IMG/VR virus record: IMGVR_UViG_3300006033_000007
Span: 1 to 46,495 of that record
Direction: 5' to 3' (one strand)
Length of the DNA stretch: 46,495 nt
DNA from: a virus
A program made the position numbers and the translations under genes. The notes under the pieces were generated by a model that had not been told where the DNA came from, searched no databases, and saw only the letters and a list, made by a program, of their open reading frames with translations. Of the stretch, positions 2,164 to 46,495 are shown in pieces; position 1 is the first letter of the stretch, and every line of letters begins with the position of its first letter.

Positions 2164-2635
2164 TTTTCACCTTTACTCCGATCGGTCGCCCGTCTTTGTC
2201 GCGCACGATGACCTTTTCAGACGATACGGCATTTATGAGCTTGTCTATTTTGGCTGACAGATCGTCGATTTTCTTTTCCAGAGCGCGGGTGTCAGCAGGC
2301 TTAATGGCAGAGATCTGAGCTGATATTTTGGCCATCCAGGCGACCATATTCTTGTCGTCTTGCTTCGGTATGGACCGGATCGCTTCACGGATTGCATCCA
2401 GGTGCGGGGTCAGATCGGCTGCCTTCATGGCAACGCCAGCGGCCTTTATGGCGTCTAGCTGCTTTTTAAAACCCTCCGAAATAGCCTTGTTCGTTTCCTT
2501 CAGCAGGGGATTAGGATCTGGCAGATCGACCTTCGGCTGGATCTTCAGGTGCTTTTTCACTTCCCGATCGATCTGCTCGTCAGTTACCTCATTGGGAAAT
2601 TCAAGGACATCGCCTTCGACTTCGACGCGTTTCAT
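2153..2635 (-). CDS. Hypothetical helical virion-associated protein
   Basis: This 160-residue charged protein has a short N-terminal motif (DVLEFPNEVTDEQIDREV) of a kind found in small phage structural proteins. A long helical, probably coiled-coil stretch follows at about residues 45-145, with repeated Ile/Ala/Leu heptads. It ends in a short beta-like tail (VIVRDKDGRPIGVKV). The ATG at 2635 overlaps the portal stop (TAATG), so translation is probably coupled to the portal gene. It lies between portal and fibre-like genes, suggesting a virion or assembly role. No function is assigned. Confidence 0.55.
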   Translation of the reverse strand: MKRVEVEGDVLEFPNEVTDEQIDREVKKHLKIQPKVDLPDPNPLLKETNKAISEGFKKQLDAIKAAGVAMKAADLTPHLDAIREAIRSIPKQDDKNMVAWMAKISAQISAIKPADTRALEKKIDDLSAKIDKLINAVSSEKVIVRDKDGRPIGVKVKNGR

Positions 2636-4101
2636 TATTCCACCCGGGTTGCTACTTTACGGCCCTTGCCATCGTATACATGGACAATGGTCTTTTCTTT
2701 CTCGTCCTTGCTGTTCTCTACCTCGTCGCCGCCGCCAACCAGATAGTCTCCTTCGACAGGTGGCAGCGCGTCCGTGCTTTCATCCAGCTCGATCGGCAAC
2801 AGACCGCCGAGGTTTATGGCCTGCTTTGCTTCCTTTCCCTCGGCCAGGCCGGAATTGTAAGACGCCATGATCCGGTTGAATTCATGATTTTTAACGACCT
2901 CTTCCTGGTCAGCAGGCAGGATGCGAAGGGACGGCCATTCCAGCTTTAGATCATCCGGCATGAACCCGAAGACTTTCTGGCAGGCGATGGTCACAATGTC
3001 GATGACCTGATACTTGATCGGGCCTCTGATCTCGCCCTCGATCATGGCGTTATAATTCTCGATGTCGTCCTCTCCAGCGTTAAACCCGGCTGCGCTGATA
3101 CCGAACAGCTTGGTTATTGGCATTTTCAGATCGGCTGCAAGCCCTTGGCGGATCTGGACCAGCATTTCGGCCAGACCCGTGAAGGTCATTTCCTTCTGCT
3201 CGTACTCGTCGTTGATGTCCATGGTCAGAGCGCTGTTATAATTCTTGATCATGTTCGCATGCTGGATGCGATTGGATACCCTCTGGGTGCCACCAGCCGT
3301 CAGCAGGGCCTCGTTAAATCCCTTCATGCGATAGACGTCGATCTTTGCTTCGTCCATCAGCTCGAAAATGACGTTCTGGTTCTTGAGGTACTGATTGAAT
3401 GTCCGGACGACCTTTTCCAAGACAGACATTCCCCAGCCCCGCAGTCGCGGACGAATGAATGAAGGAGGCTCTTTTCCGAAGAACCTATAGACGCGGGAAG
3501 GATGTATCTTGTGGCCGTAATAATCAAAAGGCTGATCCGAGTCCAGGAACTCCTCGTCCTGCGGGTCGATGTCGCCCTCACGGTTAAGCCTGTTGTGGTA
3601 AAGCTCCCACATATCGACGGGCCTGAATTCGATAGGCGTCTTTTCGTTGATGGCCTTTAGGTTCAGAGGTGTGCGCGGATCCTGGTCTGTAATGATCAGG
3701 ATTGCCCCGCCGCCATACAGGCGCGCCCACTTAGCTGCCTGAATGATGGAACGAAATACGCCACGGCGTTCGCAGAAGTCCATCAGCTTTTCAAGATCTT
3801 CCGGGTCGAGCTGTCCGGATTTGAGAACAACCCCGCTGCGGAAGGCATCGTCGACGGGCTGATCGACCAAGGTTTGTACGATTCCATGCTCGACGTACAT
3901 TTCCGAGATCATCTGCCGCATATTGGAAATGAGGTACCAGCGGTTATTGATCCACATGGTATCGGCCTGCGACAGCTGGGTACCATATCCCCCCATCGGG
4001 AAAAGCCCGTAATTTGTCAGGGATGACGCAAGATTTCCGAGGCTGTTCAGGATCTGCTCATCGTTTCTGATCTGAAGCTCTTTCCCAGTACGTTCGGACA
4101 T
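2635..4101 (-). CDS. Portal protein (DUF1073 / HI1409-type)
   Basis: This 488-residue protein resembles the DUF1073 portal family, the ring at the capsid vertex through which DNA is packaged and ejected. Recognisable parts are the N-terminal MYVEHGIVQTLVDQPVDDAF region (about 90-110), a glycine-rich WARLYGGGAILI segment (about 145-156), and the later KLFGISAAGFNAGEDD stretch (about 333-348). It directly follows the large terminase gene on the same strand, as usual. Some family members carry a C-terminal Acb1-like 2H domain. This one does not: it ends in an acidic linker and a short tail. A 2H domain is found instead in the MuF-type protein at 43795-45201. Confidence 0.9.
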   Translation of the reverse strand: MSERTGKELQIRNDEQILNSLGNLASSLTNYGLFPMGGYGTQLSQADTMWINNRWYLISNMRQMISEMYVEHGIVQTLVDQPVDDAFRSGVVLKSGQLDPEDLEKLMDFCERRGVFRSIIQAAKWARLYGGGAILIITDQDPRTPLNLKAINEKTPIEFRPVDMWELYHNRLNREGDIDPQDEEFLDSDQPFDYYGHKIHPSRVYRFFGKEPPSFIRPRLRGWGMSVLEKVVRTFNQYLKNQNVIFELMDEAKIDVYRMKGFNEALLTAGGTQRVSNRIQHANMIKNYNSALTMDINDEYEQKEMTFTGLAEMLVQIRQGLAADLKMPITKLFGISAAGFNAGEDDIENYNAMIEGEIRGPIKYQVIDIVTIACQKVFGFMPDDLKLEWPSLRILPADQEEVVKNHEFNRIMASYNSGLAEGKEAKQAINLGGLLPIELDESTDALPPVEGDYLVGGGDEVENSKDEKEKTIVHVYDGKGRKVATRVE

Positions 4102-4124: not shown

Positions 4125-5744
4125 TCAGACCACGTCAAAAATGCTGATCTCTCTGCAGGGATTATACACAGCGACAAAAGCATCAGCAAGGTTCGGGGAT
4201 TTGGCTCCATTCGGCACCTTGTCGACAATCGTTTTCCCTTCGCCGTTCTTTTTGCGGGTTGGCTGGGACAGCTCCCGGACCAGCTTCTCCAGGCACTTGA
4301 TTTCACTGGAAATGCTGATCAGCTCGTCGGGCGGGAATTTCTTTCCCTTGGTTATGGCCTGATAGGTTTTGTAAAATCTGGTCCGGGTCCGAAACCATGC
4401 CTGGGCTTTCAGGTTGCCGTACTGGTCCTTGTTCGTGATCGATCGGCTGTCTCCGGGGATAACCGGGTCGTCGGGATCCAGGACGGCTGCGCCTGCGTTC
4501 CAGGGGTAAAGCGGCAGGCTTTCCGGGCATGTCCCGTTTTCACGCATATGGCTGACCTCGACGCGGAAGCCGACCCCGACCCCGATTGAATCGTAATACA
4601 GCTCCTTGATCCCGTTCTCCAGGCACTCCGGTACCGCGCGCTGGGCAGCGTCCCCGGCCTCACCGCCCCAGTGATCGGCATAAAAGCAGACAATCCCGTG
4701 CCGCATGACCAGGGCGTTTCTGTCGCCGCCGCCATCCGCCACGTCCTGCATGGCCGACTTGATGCCCTCGACCGGGATTTTCAATTTCACATGGGCATCG
4801 ATTGCGGCCTTGACCCATTGGGCAGGAATGATGACGCGATCCACGGCCCCCGCATAGTCCCGATCGACCTCCTGGGCAAACAGGTGGAGCATGCCCTCCT
4901 CTTCGGCCTTATTCCGGCGCGCATCGTACCACTCCTGCGTTTTCCCTGGATGGTGCCGCCAATCCATGATGAACACCCGGGTCTTTTTCTTCGGCATGGC
5001 CTTGCCAGGTTCCCATTCTTCCCCCGCATTCCGGCGATTATAGAACACGTTGGCGGTACCATTGACGGATGAAATGTCGATCTGGACGTCCGTATTGTCC
5101 CCCAGCGCCGCCTCGATCTTCTCAGGGCGTTCATAGTGGGCTGACTCGTCCTTGAAATACATCGTCGAACGACCGCCACGGCCAATCTGGTCCCCGGTTT
5201 CCCCGGCGATGTTACCCCCGGTTTTGCGCGCGAGGATCTTCATACTCGGGGCATCGTTTTCCATGTCGAACTCTTCTGGCAGGAAAAACGGCGGCAGGCT
5301 GCGGAGGACGATACGCATCTTCTCGAATATGCTGTCGGGGTTTCCCAGCTCGTCGACCAGATTGGCGCGCCGGGATCCCCAGCCGATCGACACGCCTTCC
5401 ACGAACAAGAACAGCCAGACGGAAAAGCAAACGCATACCCAGGTGGCACCCATATCCCGGCATTTCTCGATTAAGCCGTCTTCGCCGTCGACGTAGCATT
5501 CGTACAGGAACTGGACCAATTCCTCCTGACGGGGGAAAAGGTTAAACGGCATCGTTTTGGGGACGGGGGACTTTTGACGGGGGTCGTATGTCATGCACCA
5601 ATCGTTGATGAATGCCACACAGCCCTTCCAGCCGGATCGATAGTAATCCATCGCCTGCGCCATTGCAGCCTCGTCACTGGTCAGCAATTCCAGCAAGCGC
5701 GCGCGTCGATAAAACTCTTTAGAAAAATCCGGAGGCCATTGCAT
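4125..5744 (-). CDS. terL: Terminase large subunit
   Basis: This 539-residue packaging motor combines an N-terminal ATPase and a C-terminal RNase H-fold nuclease. The Walker A-like segment is KCRDMGATW (94-102), a deviant form common in terminases. Walker B is TMYFKDES with D199 and E200. Nuclease acidic residues are likely D334 (MQDVADGGGD), D385 (LYYDSIG) and D521 (NLADAF). It powers translocation of DNA through the portal and cuts the concatemer. The gene sits just upstream of the portal gene and downstream of the small terminase and two tiny genes. The packaging strategy (cos or pac) cannot be told from this sequence. Confidence 0.93.
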   Translation of the reverse strand: MQWPPDFSKEFYRRARLLELLTSDEAAMAQAMDYYRSGWKGCVAFINDWCMTYDPRQKSPVPKTMPFNLFPRQEELVQFLYECYVDGEDGLIEKCRDMGATWVCVCFSVWLFLFVEGVSIGWGSRRANLVDELGNPDSIFEKMRIVLRSLPPFFLPEEFDMENDAPSMKILARKTGGNIAGETGDQIGRGGRSTMYFKDESAHYERPEKIEAALGDNTDVQIDISSVNGTANVFYNRRNAGEEWEPGKAMPKKKTRVFIMDWRHHPGKTQEWYDARRNKAEEEGMLHLFAQEVDRDYAGAVDRVIIPAQWVKAAIDAHVKLKIPVEGIKSAMQDVADGGGDRNALVMRHGIVCFYADHWGGEAGDAAQRAVPECLENGIKELYYDSIGVGVGFRVEVSHMRENGTCPESLPLYPWNAGAAVLDPDDPVIPGDSRSITNKDQYGNLKAQAWFRTRTRFYKTYQAITKGKKFPPDELISISSEIKCLEKLVRELSQPTRKKNGEGKTIVDKVPNGAKSPNLADAFVAVYNPCREISIFDVV

Positions 5745-14561: not shown

Positions 14562-14762
14562 ATGTTCAAAAGGTTTTTATGCAAGATCGGGCTACATGAC
14601 TGGTGGTATATGCCGCCAAGCCATACTGAATGGGTTTGGCACCCGTACACGATCTCAGGGTGCGATTATTATAAGTGCGTGAGATGCAGCAAAGTTGTTT
14701 TACGCGGCTATCCGGAACATCCGCACGAACACAAAGAACCCAATAGAAAGGTTTTATCATGA
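14562..14762 (+). CDS. Small zinc-ribbon-like protein, 66 residues
   Basis: I chose ATG 14562 (MFKRFLCKIGLHDW), immediately after the Lar-like stop and with GGGGGAG upstream. The protein contains CDYYKCVRCSKVVL, a Cys-x4-Cys-x2-Cys cluster that may form part of a zinc ribbon. Its start resembles small phage proteins of the form CKIGLHDW. It overlaps the next gene by four bases. Confidence 0.55.
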   Translation: MFKRFLCKIGLHDWWYMPPSHTEWVWHPYTISGCDYYKCVRCSKVVLRGYPEHPHEHKEPNRKVLS

Positions 14763-15748
14763 CCGCGACACAATCGCAGATCAGGGATGCTTTGGCAGTT
14801 GTCGAAAGCAATATCAGCCAGATACATAAACAAGGCACACAACAGGACTTAGAAGATAGTCTGCCGTTTTGGAAGACAATCCGCACCATCCTCCAATCCG
14901 CGCTGGACACGCAAAAGCCAGCGGGGGATGCGGCTCTGGTTGCGCTGTCAAAAATTATAGACACGCTGGAAGCTATTATATCCGACATAAAGCCCGGTGT
15001 GCTCTCATCCGGGCCAGTGAAGGAAATCCTTGAAACAACGGTTATCAGGATTGATTCAGTTCGTCATAGGTTAGCGTCCGACAAAGCGCCTTCTGCCGTA
15101 CACAAGGATGATAGTGATTGCCAGACCGTACACAAAAGTTTGGCAGAATTTATAACTGATCGCGCGCTACCAGACTACCTGCGAGATTTAATGATTATTA
15201 AAGTCCAATGCGATGAACCGCAGCGGATTGAGAGGATTTCAAACTTCATCGTCAAGATCAGGGAAATGGCAAAAGCCGCCCTCGCTGGTAAACCTAAGGA
15301 TTCTGTGGAGCAAGCCCTCAATGGCGATTGTGGCGGGGGTGATCGTAAATTCAAACTCGGTGATCGTGTTCGCAAGATTGGCAATAAAGGCCAGTGGCAT
15401 GGTCATGTTGTCGGGTTTTATAGCGCGTCATGTACGCCTATCGGTTACGCCATTGAGAGCGAATTGGAAACCGGATCAGTGCAAATTTACCCGGAGAGCG
15501 CCTTAGAAGCCCTCACCGCTGACAATGCCAAGAGGGGGGATAACACCGCAGCCGATACGAAGATGGGGGATGCCCTGTCCCACGATAATGCGGAGTTGGG
15601 GAAGGTCGGTGATATTTTTGATAAGTTGACGCAATACGCAGAAGATAGCATCGGATGCCAGTACGGCACTTTGTCGGCTGACCTCGTTGAGAAATTAGCA
15701 AAAGAAGGCTTGGCAATCATCGACAGGCTGATGGGGGTGAAGGGATGA
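14759..15748 (+). CDS. Multidomain protein with embedded DfrB/R67-type dihydrofolate reductase domain
   Basis: In this 329-residue protein, residues about 198-252 (bases about 15350-15514) closely match plasmid R67-type (DfrB) dihydrofolate reductase. GDRVRK (201-206) contains the equivalent of R67 Lys32, WHGHVVGFYS aligns with WQGQIVGWYC, and GSVQIYP (239-245) keeps Gln67, Ile68 and Tyr69. R67 is an SH3-like 78-residue subunit that forms a tetramer with one central active pore, reduces dihydrofolate with NADPH, and resists trimethoprim. Helical regions flank the domain (about 1-180 and 275-325). Whether this copy tetramerises and catalyses is unknown. The gene overlaps both neighbours. Confidence 0.8.
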   Translation: MTATQSQIRDALAVVESNISQIHKQGTQQDLEDSLPFWKTIRTILQSALDTQKPAGDAALVALSKIIDTLEAIISDIKPGVLSSGPVKEILETTVIRIDSVRHRLASDKAPSAVHKDDSDCQTVHKSLAEFITDRALPDYLRDLMIIKVQCDEPQRIERISNFIVKIREMAKAALAGKPKDSVEQALNGDCGGGDRKFKLGDRVRKIGNKGQWHGHVVGFYSASCTPIGYAIESELETGSVQIYPESALEALTADNAKRGDNTAADTKMGDALSHDNAELGKVGDIFDKLTQYAEDSIGCQYGTLSADLVEKLAKEGLAIIDRLMGVKG

Positions 15749-21711: not shown

Positions 21712-22863
21712 ATGACTAAAGCACAGAAAATTGAAAGCCGCGCAATCAACCCCTATTCATCAGCTGGCAATCTGCCTGCTGCTGCAGACGTATCAGGCGG
21801 CGTCTTGGTTGAAGCCCAGCGAGCAACCACTGAAATCATGACGGCATTCGAGGTCGCAAAGCGCTTTCCGCGTAACAGCGAACTGGCAGCCGAAAAGATC
21901 CTGAAGGAATGCAGCCGTCCAACGCTGGCAGAGCTTTCAACATACGAATACGCCAAGGGGGGCCAGACCATCACGGGGCCGACAATCAGGCTCCTGGAGG
22001 CGATTTCGCGCGCCTGGGGTAATATCCGTTTCGGATGGCAAGTCCTGGAAAGCACAAAGCAGGAATCCAGCATCCGCGCATATGCCGTCGATCTGGAAGA
22101 CAATATCATGCGCGAAACAACCTTTGCTGTCCGGCACTGGCGAGACCTGAAAAAGAGCGAGAAGAACCCGAACGGCGGATATGCCATCACTGACGAAAGG
22201 GATATTTACGAGCTGCAGGCAAACATGGCAATGCGCCGGGTCCGCAGCTGCCTGGAAGGATTGATCCCCCGCGATATCATTGATATGGCCCTGGAACAGT
22301 GCGACATGACCAGCAAAACAAGCGTCGACGCCAGCCCGGACGCACTCAAAAAGATGCTGGAAGCCTTTAAAAAGTTTGGGGTAAATCAGGCAATGATCGA
22401 GGCCAAATTCCAGGGGCTTAAGTTTGACAAGCTGAAGCCAGTCCAGATTGTCGCCTTGCGTAAAAACTATGCGGCGATCAAGGACGGTCTGGCAAAGGTC
22501 GAAGACTTTTTCGATACGTCCCTGGCAGATAAGCCCGAGGTAGCCGAAGAAAACAAGGAAACCAAGGGGCAGCCAGATCTGAAAAAGGCCGTCGAAGAAA
22601 AGAAAAAAGAGGCCTCAAAATCAGAGGAAAAACCGGAACCCAAGGCCGAAGAACCAAAGGCGGAAGAAATCTCAGTCTTTGATCTTGAGCAGCAGATCCG
22701 TAAGGCGATCAAGGATGCCAAGGACTACAACGATGCATTCGAGAAGGCGAATGAATACGCTGAAGAGCTGGCGCGCATCGATAAGGAAAAACCAGCTGCG
22801 GGTAAATCTCTGCGGGTATGGCTGGAGGCGACGATGGCCGAGAAAGAGGGAGCGCCTAAATAA
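21712..22863 (+). CDS. Putative single-strand annealing recombinase (RecT-like phage family)
   Basis: This 383-residue protein's N-terminal 230 residues contain TAFEVAKRFPRN, RPTLAELSTYEYAKGG and GPTIRLLEAISRAWGNIRFG, followed by RDIYELQANMAMRRVRSCLE. This is a recognisable phage family found next to YqaJ exonucleases and often assigned to annealing. A Lys/Glu-rich linker (about 280-325) and a helical tail follow. It would coat the 3' tails made by the exonuclease and promote annealing. Direct RecT homology cannot be judged by eye. Confidence 0.65.
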   Translation: MTKAQKIESRAINPYSSAGNLPAAADVSGGVLVEAQRATTEIMTAFEVAKRFPRNSELAAEKILKECSRPTLAELSTYEYAKGGQTITGPTIRLLEAISRAWGNIRFGWQVLESTKQESSIRAYAVDLEDNIMRETTFAVRHWRDLKKSEKNPNGGYAITDERDIYELQANMAMRRVRSCLEGLIPRDIIDMALEQCDMTSKTSVDASPDALKKMLEAFKKFGVNQAMIEAKFQGLKFDKLKPVQIVALRKNYAAIKDGLAKVEDFFDTSLADKPEVAEENKETKGQPDLKKAVEEKKKEASKSEEKPEPKAEEPKAEEISVFDLEQQIRKAIKDAKDYNDAFEKANEYAEELARIDKEKPAAGKSLRVWLEATMAEKEGAPK

Positions 22864-41046: not shown

Positions 41047-42120
41047 TTACGACCAGTCGAAGTACAGCGTTTCAGCGGGACGGTAAGCCACGACACCGCT
41101 GTACTGGCCGTAGCCTACGTTCTGGAACGAGAAGCCATTCAGCGTGTTCTGCATCGTGTTGGTATAGTCCACGGGCAGATCCATGCGGATGCTGTCTTCA
41201 TCGTAATTGGTCAGGACGTAACGGTTTTTGTTCAGACCTGTGATGGAAGCGTTTACGGATTTGATCGCGTAAGCGCATGGCAGAATCTTGAAATTCGGAT
41301 TCTGTGTCATCAGGCGCAGGCCTTCCAGCAGGCGCTCCAGGCGTGATTTCAGCGGGTAGGTCTCGTCAACAGACGATGCCAGACCGTTGTAATCGTCTTC
41401 CGGGATGTAGAAGGCTGTAGGCATTGCCGTGCGACTTGCGTTTGCACGATATGCTTCCAGAAGTCCGGCCAGAAGGGCTTGGAACTCTGCCGCGTTCATC
41501 GAAGAGATTTTCTTCGTGATCAGAGCAGTGTTGGAGTTTACGTTTGCCAAGGTCAGAAGACCTTTGACACCCGGAACCACCGTGGAACCCCAGAACGCTA
41601 CTTGCTGCAGGCCCAGGGACCAGTTGCGGTAGCGCGCCTTCTCCATGGAGGAAACCAGATCCCAGTTACCCGAGCGGGAAGCCTGCATCAGGTCAATGAT
41701 GCTGTAGGTGATTTCCTTCGCCCAGTTCACGACCGGGGTGTAGACGGCGTCAACGGCTGTGCTGACGGAGGCCAGTTTCGCATGGCTGGTTCCGGTATTC
41801 AGCACACCTGTCTCGAAGTCATCCGCAACGTCAAAGCTGCGGTATTTGACCAGCTGGGACGACCATGCGCCTTCACCGACCACGACCGGAACATAGTTTG
41901 CGAAGTTTACCTCGTAGAACTTCTGCTCCGTTACCGACTTGATCAGCTGTGTAAGGCTGGTGATGTCGATATCGTATGCCAGGGCGTTGTGCTTTTCAAA
42001 GCCGGGGAGACCGGGCTTCATGTTTTCGTACTGACGCTGGAGATTGCGCGCAAGGAACGCTTCCTGGCTTGTCAGCATAACCGGGCTGCCCTTGCTGTTG
42101 AGAACTTCAAATTTAGACAT
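41047..42120 (-). CDS. Major capsid protein (DUF2184-type)
   Basis: This 357-residue protein resembles the DUF2184 capsid family: SLTQLIKSVTEQKFYEVNFA, VVNWAKEITYSIIDLMQAS and SRLERLLEGLRLM. I chose ATG 42120 (MSKFEVLNSKGSP), with GAAAGGAAC upstream, over ATG 42138. It follows scaffold/protease and decoration genes as normal for this group. It builds the icosahedral shell. Confidence 0.88.
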   Translation of the reverse strand: MSKFEVLNSKGSPVMLTSQEAFLARNLQRQYENMKPGLPGFEKHNALAYDIDITSLTQLIKSVTEQKFYEVNFANYVPVVVGEGAWSSQLVKYRSFDVADDFETGVLNTGTSHAKLASVSTAVDAVYTPVVNWAKEITYSIIDLMQASRSGNWDLVSSMEKARYRNWSLGLQQVAFWGSTVVPGVKGLLTLANVNSNTALITKKISSMNAAEFQALLAGLLEAYRANASRTAMPTAFYIPEDDYNGLASSVDETYPLKSRLERLLEGLRLMTQNPNFKILPCAYAIKSVNASITGLNKNRYVLTNYDEDSIRMDLPVDYTNTMQNTLNGFSFQNVGYGQYSGVVAYRPAETLYFDWS

Positions 42121-42152
42121 GTTTTTTGTTCCTTTCACAGATTGGGACCGGA

Positions 42153-42645: not shown

Positions 42646-43143
42646 TTAGTGGGTTGTGCCGTAGCGGGACTGGCCGCGCTGCAGCTTTGTGGCGTTGTTT
42701 TCGATGCGATGTTTCTTGCCTACGCCAGTTTTTTTGTTGGCATTGGAAAGCTCTTTGAAGTGATCGACGTCACCGAGCGAATTGTCTTTTTCATCCTTTT
42801 CGCCGTCTTCGTTGTCCTTCTCTTCTTTGTCGGATTCATTATCCATTTCGTCGTCTTCATCCGCCTCGTTGTCCTTCTCTTCCTTTTCATCGTCAGAGTT
42901 TTTCTTGGCGTTCAGCTTTTCGACGGCGTTGACCAGCTCTTCCAAGGTCATTTCTTTGCTGCCGACCTTGATTTTTGCCTGTCCTTTTTTCTTCTCGTCT
43001 TCGGCCTTCATGGAAGCCTCAACGGCGTTTACCATTTCCTGGACGGTCATTTCCACGACTTCGCCCTTGGCGTTTGTCATTTCGACGAGGGTGTCCGCGT
43101 CAACCGTGCTGACTTCCTCTTTCTTGGTCTTGAACAATTTCAT
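42646..43143 (-). CDS. Possible separate scaffold from an internal start
   Basis: ATG 43143 (MKLFKTKKEEVSTVDA) is preceded by AGAAAGGCTACATC, with AAAGG at suitable spacing. The product would be the 165-residue charged scaffold half of the upstream gene, as lambda Nu3 is made within the C protease gene. Support is by motif and arrangement only. Confidence 0.5.
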   Translation of the reverse strand: MKLFKTKKEEVSTVDADTLVEMTNAKGEVVEMTVQEMVNAVEASMKAEDEKKKGQAKIKVGSKEMTLEELVNAVEKLNAKKNSDDEKEEKDNEADEDDEMDNESDKEEKDNEDGEKDEKDNSLGDVDHFKELSNANKKTGVGKKHRIENNATKLQRGQSRYGTTH

Positions 43144-43698
43144 GATGTAGCCTTTCTTTTCAGTTTTGCTGTTGCGAAGTTCGTTCAGTTGTTCGCGGTT
43201 TCTTTCCTGGTAAATCTTAAACTCATCGGGGGTCATTACACAAGCGGCCTCGTACCGGGGGTTCGGGACCAGGGCCAGATGGGTAAATTTGGCGTTTACG
43301 ATCTGGCGATCGAAGGGAAGGTTGTTGTGCAGGCCACCCTCTCCAAACTCCAAGGGGACGTAAGCATTCGATACTGCCCAGCCTTCTCCGATCGCTGCCA
43401 GGGCATCGTCATTGACCAGGACCATTTTGGACCATAGCCAGCCGTCCAGCTCGTTGTAGAAGGTTTCGGTAACATAGCCGTGAGCGGTTTCCTGCAGGGT
43501 GCGGACGCGCTCTTCCTCTGTTCGATTGTCGTGAAGGACGTAGATCGGCTTTCCGTCAAAGGTGGGGGCCATACGCTTCATGGTATCTGCGTTGACCAGG
43601 ACTGTTTCATCCTCATAGCCACACAGACCCGGCACCATATGGCGCGCGTAATAAATCTTTCCGTACTGACTAGCGTTCGAAATTTCAGTGCCTGACAT
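42646..43698 (-). CDS. DUF2213-like prohead protease/scaffold fusion
   Basis: This 350-residue protein's N-terminal about 180 residues have DTMKRMAPTFDGKPIYVLHD, ETAHGYVTETFYNELDGWLW and FTHLALVPNPRYEAACV, a DUF2213-type head maturation protease domain. The C-terminus is extremely acidic and Lys-rich (about 255-310), as scaffolds are. An internal start at 43143 could yield the scaffold alone. It lies between the MuF-type and decoration genes. Confidence 0.8.
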   Translation of the reverse strand: MSGTEISNASQYGKIYYARHMVPGLCGYEDETVLVNADTMKRMAPTFDGKPIYVLHDNRTEEERVRTLQETAHGYVTETFYNELDGWLWSKMVLVNDDALAAIGEGWAVSNAYVPLEFGEGGLHNNLPFDRQIVNAKFTHLALVPNPRYEAACVMTPDEFKIYQERNREQLNELRNSKTEKKGYIMKLFKTKKEEVSTVDADTLVEMTNAKGEVVEMTVQEMVNAVEASMKAEDEKKKGQAKIKVGSKEMTLEELVNAVEKLNAKKNSDDEKEEKDNEADEDDEMDNESDKEEKDNEDGEKDEKDNSLGDVDHFKELSNANKKTGVGKKHRIENNATKLQRGQSRYGTTH

Positions 43699-43766: not shown

Positions 43767-43796
43767 GACCATTTTCGTGAGTCGGTGAAAATGGTC
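43767..43796. other. Perfect 10-bp hairpin at end of MuF-type gene
   Basis: GACCATTTTC (43767-43776) and GAAAATGGTC (43787-43796) flank a 10-base loop and overlap the MuF-type stop. No T-run follows on either strand, so it is not a simple terminator. It could stabilise or process the late mRNA. Confidence 0.7.
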
Positions 43797-45201
43797 AGTT
43801 GAACAGCGCAATCGGGATGCAGCGGCAGCCGTAATCCTCTCCAGGGTGGCATCGACGGCCTGTTTTAAGATCGACCACCGGAGGCTCCGACCAGGAAAAG
43901 ATTTCACCTTCCAATGCCTTATGATCCGGCCTTTCTCGCTCGTCCATTGCGCCTGACCATCGATAGCCGAAGCTGCCAATCTCCTGAAAGCGGTTCTGAT
44001 TATACTTTGACACGAGCAGGCTGGTTTCTTGGCGCGCCAGGAATTTCGCTTTATTTTTGGAAACCCCATAATTGTGCTGGATGGCCTGAACCATTGATGA
44101 TGCGCGCCGTCCGGCGAAAGCATTGTCCTGGACTTGCTGGCGAAGAGCCAAGATGTCCTCGGCTGCCCATTTCTTGATGTAAAGATCCAGATTATTAGAC
44201 CAGTCAGCAGACAGTGCCGCCACGGTGCCGGGGGTCAGATTTGGCGGAATCGTTATCGATTTGACGGCCTTTTTAAATTCCTTATCCAGCGCTTCGATCT
44301 CTATTCCGAACAGCTGCCGCACCCTGGAGAGCCTGTCGATTTTCCCGATATCGATATTATCCAGGGCGTTTATGACGCGCTTGCGAAGGGCGGTATATTG
44401 CATTTCAGACGTGGCCAGCGAGACTGAAATATGGGCAGGGAGGACGCCTGCGTATGACCATGTCTTTGACTTTGGATTGAACGTGGCCCCCATGGATTTA
44501 AGATCCCGGCTTATGGCTGCGGTGAAATTTCCCTTAAAAATACCATTCTCAAGATAAACCGTCCCATTGACGATGGCCCGGTCGAGCGCATCGCCCTGGG
44601 CATTAATCAGCTCGGTAATCTTATGCCTCCAGGACGAGACCAGCTTCTCATGAATTTCATCGCCAAGGATGATCAGGCCTGGATACGGAGTGATTTTTGT
44701 TACATCGACGTCTTTTGCATCGTATGTCAGGGTGATATGAGGCTGATAGCTGTCGTAATCCCAGGATGCGCCATGCTTTTCGATCAATTCCAACCACCGG
44801 GTCTGAAGAACAGAGGATTGGAACATCAGAACCACAGCACCCTTGTCTCCCAGCCGGGTAACAAGGCGCCCGGATTTCTGGCTTATAGCGATCGTTCCTT
44901 TTGCCTTTTCTATGTCTTTTGCCTCGACACCAGCCCGAGAATGGCAAATTGTAACGTGCAGATCTTCAGCCTTCAGGGTTGATTTAATCCCCTGGGATCT
45001 TGCCCATTCAATAATCTGGTCAGCATTGACGATCGGCCTGCGGATATACAGTGGGGCTTTGGCGTTCTTTATTTCGGCTTTGGGTACCTGGAGAGCCGCC
45101 ACCAGTGGCTTGTAAATCACTTCCCAATAGATGCGATTAATTTCCCGTTCCAGGGCGCGGTAGTCTTTATCCCGGACGGGAAGGGCCTTGATCGCCTTCA
45201 T
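43795..45201 (-). CDS. MuF-type minor head protein with N-terminal Acb1-like 2H phosphoesterase domain
   Basis: In this 468-residue protein, residues about 50-195 (bases about 44617-45054) form a 2H phosphoesterase domain. LHVTICHS gives H82-V-T84, QPHITLTY gives H155-I-T157, and GLIILGDEIHEKL follows. These match Acb1, the T4-like anti-CBASS enzyme that cleaves cyclic oligonucleotide signals; its two H-x-T motifs are spaced similarly. Residues about 205-265 contain FKGNFTAAISRDLKSMGATF, and about 385-465 form the MuF/SPP1 gp7 domain: RQETSLLVSKYNQNRFQEIG, then AMDERERPDHKALEG and CHPGEDYGCRCIP. MuF proteins are minor capsid components, some of which are ejected with DNA. The fusion would place the enzyme in the virion. 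Substrate is inferred from family only. Confidence 0.85.
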   Translation of the reverse strand: MKAIKALPVRDKDYRALEREINRIYWEVIYKPLVAALQVPKAEIKNAKAPLYIRRPIVNADQIIEWARSQGIKSTLKAEDLHVTICHSRAGVEAKDIEKAKGTIAISQKSGRLVTRLGDKGAVVLMFQSSVLQTRWLELIEKHGASWDYDSYQPHITLTYDAKDVDVTKITPYPGLIILGDEIHEKLVSSWRHKITELINAQGDALDRAIVNGTVYLENGIFKGNFTAAISRDLKSMGATFNPKSKTWSYAGVLPAHISVSLATSEMQYTALRKRVINALDNIDIGKIDRLSRVRQLFGIEIEALDKEFKKAVKSITIPPNLTPGTVAALSADWSNNLDLYIKKWAAEDILALRQQVQDNAFAGRRASSMVQAIQHNYGVSKNKAKFLARQETSLLVSKYNQNRFQEIGSFGYRWSGAMDERERPDHKALEGEIFSWSEPPVVDLKTGRRCHPGEDYGCRCIPIALFN

Positions 45202-45560
45202 AGGATCTCCAGCAGAATGATTTCGATTTCCTCATCGTAATAATTCACCGCTGGCTTCGCAATCGTCTTCTGTGCGGCCACCATTTTCGGAACCGGGGAT
45301 GGCGCTGGATCTTCGACGTACCTGATCCTGGGGGCGCGCCGTTCCCGTTTCACTTCCTGGAAAAAGCTTTTCTTCAGCTCTTCCAGTTTCCGTAGGTATT
45401 CCTGGGTAACATAAAGGCCGCGTTTGGGGGGTGCTGGTTCAGATGGAGCATTGAGGCCCCCCAGCCAAAATCCCAACACTCCCCTAAATCCCGGCTTCGG
45501 TCGGGGAAATGAGAGTCCCCCGATCCATTTTCCTATAAGGGATCTAAATCCGCCTGCCAT
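45198..45560 (-). CDS. Hypothetical protein before MuF-type gene, 120 residues
   Basis: The N-terminus has two Gly/Trp repeats, FRSLIGKWIGGLSFP and FRGVLGFWLGGLN. A Pro/Lys middle and an acidic end (NYYDEEIEIILLEIL) follow. It lies between fibre-like and MuF-type genes. No family with known function was recognised. Its stop overlaps the MuF-type start (ATGA). Confidence 0.55.
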   Translation of the reverse strand: MAGGFRSLIGKWIGGLSFPRPKPGFRGVLGFWLGGLNAPSEPAPPKRGLYVTQEYLRKLEELKKSFFQEVKRERRAPRIRYVEDPAPSPVPKMVAAQKTIAKPAVNYYDEEIEIILLEIL

Positions 45561-45563
45561 TTT

Positions 45564-46495
45564 CTATGTCGGGTCCGTTCCGGTAATCGGGATCGCCGTG
45601 GAGCTTGTCGTCAAGGCTGCCGTCCATGCCTCGGTCGTGTCGTCTTCCTTGTAAACAACCAGGTCGCCGGATTCCGTTGACATTCTGTTTCGCAGGATGC
45701 GCAGGGCATTCAGCGGAGATCTGCTGGCTTCGCCTGTGATTGCAGACATGTCGTACTTGAGGAGAGCCTCTGCGTTTGCTGCTGCTGTTGGCGGGGTCGT
45801 GTAGCTTGCGGATGCCAGCCTGGTTGAAACAGCAATGTCCAGGCGTCCCATGACAGTCGGGTCAACGCCTGCAGCCAGGATCGCTGCATCTGCCGCCGCC
45901 TCGACGTCTGCACTGCTCAGGTCATTGAACCCGGTAATTCCGGTTCCTTTGGCAAGAACGATATTGGTTCCTGCTGTCAGCTCGCGGGTTCCGTATGTCC
46001 ACACGTCAGCTGCTGTCAGACCTCCGGACGGAGCGTTCTCCAGTGCGTTTGCGGTAAACTGATAAACGATCCCGTCCAGCTGCATTGCTGTGTCGAGCTT
46101 GTCGGTTACAGGCTTAATCAGGGCTGCTGTCACGTAAGTATCAATCGCCAGCTTTCCAAAGGTGTCGGGGGAAGAGGACCAGCCTGCCGGATCTGCCTGC
46201 CAAACCGTGTAAGCAGTTGTCGCTGCATCTGGCAGATTTGCAACCACGTTTCCGAAGCTTCCCGGGGTAAGGTGTCCCGAATAATCCACGTCCCAAACCA
46301 GACCAGGCGTGTCGTCGACGGCGTCTTTGATCGCTGTAAATCCATTCGCGCCTTTTGCCAGGGCGAGGACGCCGCCTGCCCGCTCGATGCTGAAATGGGC
46401 CAGGGTTTCACCGGCCACAGAAACGCCGTCAACGGTACCAGCCGTCAGAACGATCGAGCATTCGCTGCCTGCCGCATAGAATGTCCCGTCTGCGC
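45564..46495 (-). CDS. Tail fibre / receptor-binding-like protein, remainder of gene crossing the window ends
   Basis: This continues the 379-residue gene that starts at 298 and reads through position 1 into 46405. Bases 46406-46495 duplicate 1-90. The C-terminal part contains TAADVWTYGTRELTAGTNIV and repeated SADVEAAADAAILAAGVDP helices, and ends near DLVVYKEDDTTEAW. A GTG at 46418 is an internal codon, not a start. A fibre-like, baseplate-attached role is inferred from the N-terminal part. Confidence 0.75.
   Translation of the reverse strand, partial: ADGTFYAAGSECSIVLTAGTVDGVSVAGETLAHFSIERAGGVLALAKGANGFTAIKDAVDDTPGLVWDVDYSGHLTPGSFGNVVANLPDAATTAYTVWQADPAGWSSSPDTFGKLAIDTYVTAALIKPVTDKLDTAMQLDGIVYQFTANALENAPSGGLTAADVWTYGTRELTAGTNIVLAKGTGITGFNDLSSADVEAAADAAILAAGVDPTVMGRLDIAVSTRLASASYTTPPTAAANAEALLKYDMSAITGEASRSPLNALRILRNRMSTESGDLVVYKEDDTTEAWTAALTTSSTAIPITGTDPT
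46406..46495. repeat. Terminal direct repeat, right copy
   Basis: This is an exact copy of bases 1-90 and marks the circular overlap. It should be collapsed when measuring genome length or placing genes. Confidence 0.95.

Follow-up and report, generated by a model that had tools for sequence, protein, structure and literature searches.

The viral DNA stretch analysed here (IMG/VR record IMGVR_UViG_3300006033_000007, positions 1 to 46,495; henceforth 'the window', 46,495 nucleotides) encodes a minor head protein of the MuF/SPP1 gp7 type that contains an internally inserted domain of the anti-CBASS phosphodiesterase family Acb1. The cyclic oligonucleotide-based antiphage signalling system (CBASS) is a bacterial immune system with a chemical alarm signal, which Acb1 destroys, and the counter-defences known against CBASS are enzymes or sponges made after infection. 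We lean towards the reading that the fusion protein, here called MuF-Acb1, is a particle-borne anti-CBASS enzyme that would be injected with the DNA and would cleave CBASS signals before phage genes are expressed. Were Acb1 packaged and ejected in this manner, immune signals could be destroyed before any phage protein is made, and it would follow that counter-defence genes can escape annotation inside head proteins.

The initial annotation had placed an Acb1-like 2H domain with two HxT motifs (H82/T84 and H155/T157) at positions 44617-45054 of the minus strand, which correspond to residues 50-195 of a 468-residue open reading frame at 43795-45201 (minus strand), and this assignment was borne out. 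The Pfam family Acb1 (PF23474) matched residues 50-193 over model positions 2-143 of 144, with a score of 127.4 bits (cut-off 27, E=4.7e-37) that lies far outside what chance would give, and among sequences in the PDB the domain matched the C-terminal part of the Pam3 portal (8hds, E=2e-20) and FBB1 Acb1 (7t26/7t27, E=1e-8). An AlphaFold2 (AF2) model of the domain alone, built with 40 relatives and with a predicted local distance difference test score (pLDDT) of 92.8, superposed on the Acb1 of Erwinia phage FBB1 with 3'3'-cGAMP (7t27) with a Z of 17.4 and 1.7 Å over 135 residues (7t26, Z 16.6), whereas LigT, CPDase, Usb1 and other cellular 2H enzymes gave Z values of about 10.7 or less. The model clearly indicates a 2H phosphoesterase fold that is nearer Acb1 than LigT, CPDase or Usb1, as the initial annotation had proposed. 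8HDS was not among the matches of the fold searches with the modelled domain; the Acb1 domain of Pam3 is perhaps unmodelled in that structure.

Judged by alignment, the predicted catalytic tetrad H82/T84/H155/T157 is intact and several putative substrate contacts are retained: Y149, W191 and E185 align with F107, W147 and E141 of T4 Acb1 at base contacts, and Y52 is the likely counterpart of T4 Y12, although it falls outside the aligned FBB1 stretch. As the initial annotation had quoted, GLIILGDEIHEKL stands after the second HxT motif. Across 116 distinct Acb1 proteins (from viral contigs, the window and a contig, L190, that carries a second fusion), E182 is invariant. The domain shares with T4 and FBB1 Acb1 (7T26/7T27) the fold, the HxT/HxT tetrad, the lid tryptophan and the glutamate aligned with E141; it differs from these standalone proteins in lying within a MuF head protein and in having a non-aromatic residue at the W74 position. 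The activity of Acb1 was demonstrated by Hobbs et al. 2022 (PMC9117128), and the nine further phage Acb1 proteins assayed there all cleaved 3'3'-cGAMP and cAAA. It is quite improbable, in our view, that MuF-Acb1, whether it is delivered or made late, acts as a 2H phosphoesterase on some other substrate (such as RNA ends or 2'-5' oligonucleotides) and has no anti-CBASS role. The 2H fold does serve many substrates, W74 of T4 Acb1 is replaced here, and an RNase role was held consistent with 2H-MuF/portal fusions by Iyer et al. 2017 (PMC5512222), but both fold and sequence lie nearer Acb1 than the cellular enzymes, and the uniform activity of the nine assayed proteins also speaks against it.

The rest of the protein is of the MuF/SPP1 gp7 type, as had been annotated: Phage_Mu_F (PF04233) matched residues 354-461 (E=4e-16, 60.1 bits, cut-off 29.6) and phageSPP1_gp7 (NCBIfam TIGR01641) scored 66.6 bits against a cut-off of 39.65. 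The description of the enzyme as 'built into' this protein holds in that the fusion is real, and the alignment refines it to an insertion after about residue 46, so that Acb1 separates the N-terminal helix (residues 1-46) from the remaining MuF protein and is not at a terminus. The flanking segments (residues 1-46 and 199-468) can be aligned to MuF proteins about 315 residues long from viral contigs and Bdellovibrio phage phi1422, all of which are without Acb1; of the related MuF proteins, about 80 in all, only two contain the domain. The nearest cultured relative found for the MuF part is gp47 of phi1422 (JQ177062, 35% identity), a MuF protein of 318 residues without Acb1 from a phage whose portal is likewise without it. 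In the window protein the motif PKAEIKNA precedes the insert and ITELINA succeeds it, and both junctions resemble the native one (for example PEIELMNT), which hints that a short duplication may have arisen when Acb1 inserted. In a full-length model the MuF parts were mostly confident, with pLDDT 84-89 as far as residue 30 in the helix at residues 11-37, and residues 40-51 and 185-202 fell below pLDDT 50, so that the Acb1 domain is probably tethered to the MuF protein by loose linkers; since only 2 of the 18 alignment rows behind this model carry Acb1, its Acb1 part is poorly modelled, and the fold comparison was made with the model of the domain by itself. Like MuF-Acb1, the MuF polymorphic toxins (Jamet et al. 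2017, PMC5576092) use a MuF protein to carry an enzyme domain, with a proposed delivery alongside the DNA. Their hallmark is a toxin domain at the C-terminus, in most cases accompanied by a small immunity gene, whereas MuF-Acb1 has a counter-defence enzyme near its N-terminus and its MuF domain ends the protein (last matched residue 461 of 468). Among MuF proteins of the same clade, those at L130:5908-7752 and L180:5893-7809 match an intein-splicing domain C-terminal to the MuF domain. A further MuF protein (L195:7866-9113) has a faint match to 2',3'-cyclic nucleotide phosphodiesterase (E=0.006), which may reflect another MuF-carried enzyme or chance.

A second MuF-Acb1 fusion, with matching junctions and 53% identical to the window protein, is encoded on L190, a contig in a metagenome-assembled genome labelled Sphingomonadales (a label that may be a binning accident). 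It is hardly conceivable that separate Acb1 and MuF genes were joined by a chimeric assembly or a frame error. The fusion was initially seen in a single window, and in other phages Acb1 is usually in the gene just upstream of MuF, but L190 is independent, has the same junctions and carries its own Acb1-less portal directly upstream of the MuF-Acb1 gene, which rules out an assembly artefact. The L190 fusion retains the equivalents of H82/T84/H155/T157, E182, E185, Y149 and W191. Between the two proteins the Acb1 parts are 56.6% and the MuF parts 55.6% identical, and nonsynonymous divergence (dN) is 0.42 in both parts (synonymous sites are saturated), so that selection maintains the enzyme no less strictly than the head protein. 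A structural decoration without enzymatic role, retained for head assembly or stability, is very unlikely: Acb1 does sit in structural proteins of many phages, but related MuF proteins exist without it, and its catalytic residues persist in essentially every one of the 116 proteins, although structure alone would place no demand on them.

In the Acb1 tree the domains of the window and L190 are sisters (99), and together they join the Acb1 of XkdF prohead proteases and polyvalent proteins (SH-aLRT support 83-84, weak), away from portal Acb1. The MuF trees do not join the two proteins, although a single origin was not rejected (approximately unbiased test, p-AU 0.364). From these sequence comparisons we prefer one insertion with later loss or exchange; two independent insertions are disfavoured, as p-AU allows one origin, the Acb1 domains are sisters and the junctions match. 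The gene order of Pam3, Erebus and Rhizobium phages had pointed to a direct transfer from the portal C-terminus to the adjacent MuF gene. This route is disfavoured by the (weak) grouping in the Acb1 tree and by the clade's own portals, which are without Acb1; the contrast between portal and MuF protein drawn in the initial annotation is nevertheless real. In a GenBank-derived phage collection, at least 80% coverage of the 468-residue protein was reached only by Erebus, whose match spans two separate genes, and a scan of viral contigs with the Acb1 of the two fusions alone gave no further copies. Among 289 genomes of the class of G001, the Acb1 cut-off was passed by 2.

The window portal ends where the Acb1 part of the portal family phrog_146 starts and hence is without the Acb1 domain, as had been claimed. 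In Acb1-bearing portals (Pam3, 8HDS sequence; Rhizobium and Synechococcus phages) Acb1 likewise sits on a head protein of the packaging module, but at the C-terminus of the portal, with a separate MuF gene without Acb1, and the MuF-borne Acb1 lies elsewhere in the tree. A 90-bp direct repeat at the two ends of the window shows that the contig represents an entire circular phage genome, about 46.4 kb long. On this circle the terminase gene is followed by the portal gene, four genes of unknown function, the MuF-Acb1 gene, that for the protease/scaffold, one small gene and the capsid gene, so that the MuF gene falls within the portal-to-capsid module. The four genes between portal and MuF (298-2635; 45198-46495 plus 1-298) set the window apart from L190, where the two are adjacent.

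The sample of 116 Acb1 proteins was picked by similarity to the window domain and some loci overlap, so that shares are rough and the variety of partners is the finding. Related portals carry Acb1, as the initial annotation had stated: in addition to the Pam3 portal (8hds), the domain is in DUF1073 portals in 76 of the 116 and in Mu-type portals in four, and two match an HK97-type portal. Thirteen match the XkdF-protease model, three are DUF2213 prohead proteases, two are MuF proteins and one is a portal-Acb1-MuF polyprotein; the remainder are giant or ART polyvalent proteins, plus a few standalone. There are thus at least seven other inner-head or predicted-injected partners, namely three portal families, the portal-MuF fusion, two prohead-protease families and the polyvalent proteins. 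Portal, MuF and protease proteins share the inner side of the head. Polyvalent proteins are predicted to be injected (PMC5512222). The repeated attachment of Acb1 to inner-head proteins suggests that the enzyme rides in the particle and acts at the start of infection.

Several of these loci are described here individually. The polyprotein (L214:708-3566) is a single protein of 953 residues in which an HK97-type portal domain is followed by Acb1 and then by MuF. Fusions of Acb1 with an XkdF-type prohead protease, often with a ChaB domain, lie at L034:3347-4522, L036:4189-5331, L065:3314-5983, L066:4551-5873, L072:617-1744, L074:4782-5852 and L106:4092-4985; they deserve attention because a prohead protease can trigger CBASS. 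The genuine protease fusions come from viral contigs: of the records named 'prohead protease' that contain Acb1 (OM621816, Rhizobiaceae plasmids), the two inspected were Acb1-only proteins of fewer than 200 residues and were rejected as fusions. Mu-type portals (PF06074) with Acb1 toward the C-terminus are at L242:4669-6747, L263:4711-6720, L270:4663-6711 and L276:4666-6708. Polyvalent-type proteins of 1160 to at least 2701 residues carry Acb1 mid-protein (L033:627-6386, L037:2433-5912, L043:2340-10442, L048:1875-7325 and L062:2361-9077), and some of them also have oxidoreductase, helicase or methyltransferase domains.

How MuF-Acb1 might act can be outlined by analogy with SPP1, whose portal targets gp7 to the procapsid interior and whose gp7 raises the fraction of infectious particles and aids the start of infection (PMC6316719, PMC5576092). 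We infer the activity, packaging, ejection and early action of MuF-Acb1 as follows. The Acb1 domain, inserted via flexible linkers in the MuF-type protein, would be carried into the head by the fusion, the portal drawing a few copies into the procapsid as with gp7, and possibly on into the cell. There the domain, whole or released by the head protease, would enter with the DNA and cleave cyclic di- and trinucleotide CBASS signals (3'3'-cGAMP, cAAA) by the metal-free HxT/HxT mechanism, and this cleavage would precede phage gene expression. Some points weigh against virion delivery of an anti-CBASS enzyme. SPP1 capsids hold 1-2 copies of MuF (PMC5576092), so the injected dose would be tiny, though an enzyme needs little; the domain is dispensable, given how few of the related MuF proteins carry it; and the stacking residue W74 of T4 Acb1 corresponds by alignment to V114 here, which is not aromatic. 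Alternatively, an active Acb1 could work late in the producing cell, the head-protein fusion giving late expression and placement at assembly, when head proteins trigger CBASS sensors, and packaging being incidental. This is a serious rival, if an unlikely one: a prohead protease interacts with a CBASS sensor and induces growth arrest (PMC12409349), Acb1 is fused to two prohead-protease families, and standalone T4 Acb1 works without a head-protein fusion. However, some partners are large polyvalent proteins of the kind that PMC5512222 predicts to be injected, and a free late gene would suffice without burdening portal, MuF and protease, so that repeated fusion needs a further reason. Between virion delivery and action in the producing cell the computed evidence favours neither.

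The initial annotation overstated the novelty of the fusion. In section 20 of Iyer et al. 2017 (PMC5512222), fusions of 2H domains with MuF or portal domains are described and proposed to be able to degrade host-defence nucleotide signals; these fusions are of the same architecture class and come with the same idea, and they predate the discovery of the anti-CBASS activity of Acb1 in 2022. MuF-Acb1 is accordingly a variant of a known architecture, to which the present analysis adds that the domain is inserted internally, that a second phage conserves this arrangement and that Acb1 has a wide range of head-protein partners. A text search, with subscription papers outside its scope, found no paper combining Acb1, CBASS and a MuF/portal fusion. 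More broadly, and more tentatively than for MuF-Acb1 itself, Acb1 may be a roaming counter-defence module repeatedly spliced into head-interior proteins, including CBASS-tripping prohead proteases. In that case particles would bring the antidote, or the trigger protein would carry its own, and anti-CBASS enzymes borne by virions would be a widespread strategy instead of a peculiarity of this phage. The repeated fusion to portal, MuF and protease makes the destruction of signals by packaged and ejected Acb1 testable in cultured phages with Acb1 portals (for example Pam3 and the Rhizobium RHEph phages).

Table 1. Coordinates of the MuF-Acb1 gene, its parts and other features of the window
Feature	Position	Strand	Basis
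MuF/SPP1-gp7-type minor head protein with internal Acb1 domain, 468 residues	43795..45201	-	Pfam, NCBIfam and phrog profile matches
MuF N-terminal helix region, residues 1-46, common to Acb1-less relatives	45064..45201	-	alignment with relatives; helix 11-37 in full-length model
Inserted Acb1-type 2H phosphoesterase domain and linkers, residues 47-198 (Pfam at 50-193)	44608..45063	-	Pfam, AF2 model, fold match, absence in aligned relatives
First HxT motif, H82-V83-T84 (H44/T46 of T4 Acb1)	44950..44958	-	invariant in 116/116 Acb1 proteins
Second HxT motif, H155-I156-T157 (H113/T115 of T4 Acb1)	44731..44739	-	H in 115/116, T or S in 116/116 (four serines)
E182 to W191: invariant E182, E185 (putatively aligned with adenine-contacting E141 of T4 Acb1), lid W191 (putatively aligned with W147)	44629..44658	-	numbering carried over by alignment
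Remainder of MuF protein, residues 199-468, Phage_Mu_F at 354-461	43798..44607	-	Pfam, alignment, model
Putative head maturation protease/scaffold, directly downstream of MuF gene	42646..43698	-	phrog_2229 E=4.9e-9, phrog_12864 E=1.6e-8
Major capsid protein (PF09950)	41047..42138	-	Pfam
Portal, Phage_portal_3 (PF06381, DUF1073 type), 488 residues, without Acb1 domain	2635..4101	-	Pfam, phrog
Large terminase	4125..5744	-	phrog_5989 E=8.6e-12
90-bp direct repeat of window bases 1-90	46406..46495		sequence comparison of window ends

Two further genes of the window lie on the plus strand. One (14759-15748) encodes a protein of 329 residues that contains a dihydrofolate reductase domain of the R67 type (PF06442, E=1e-16). 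The other (21712-22863) has a weak, below-cut-off match to 5-hydroxymethyldeoxyuridine (5-hmdU) DNA kinase 2 (PF18747) and is possibly a DNA hypermodification gene.
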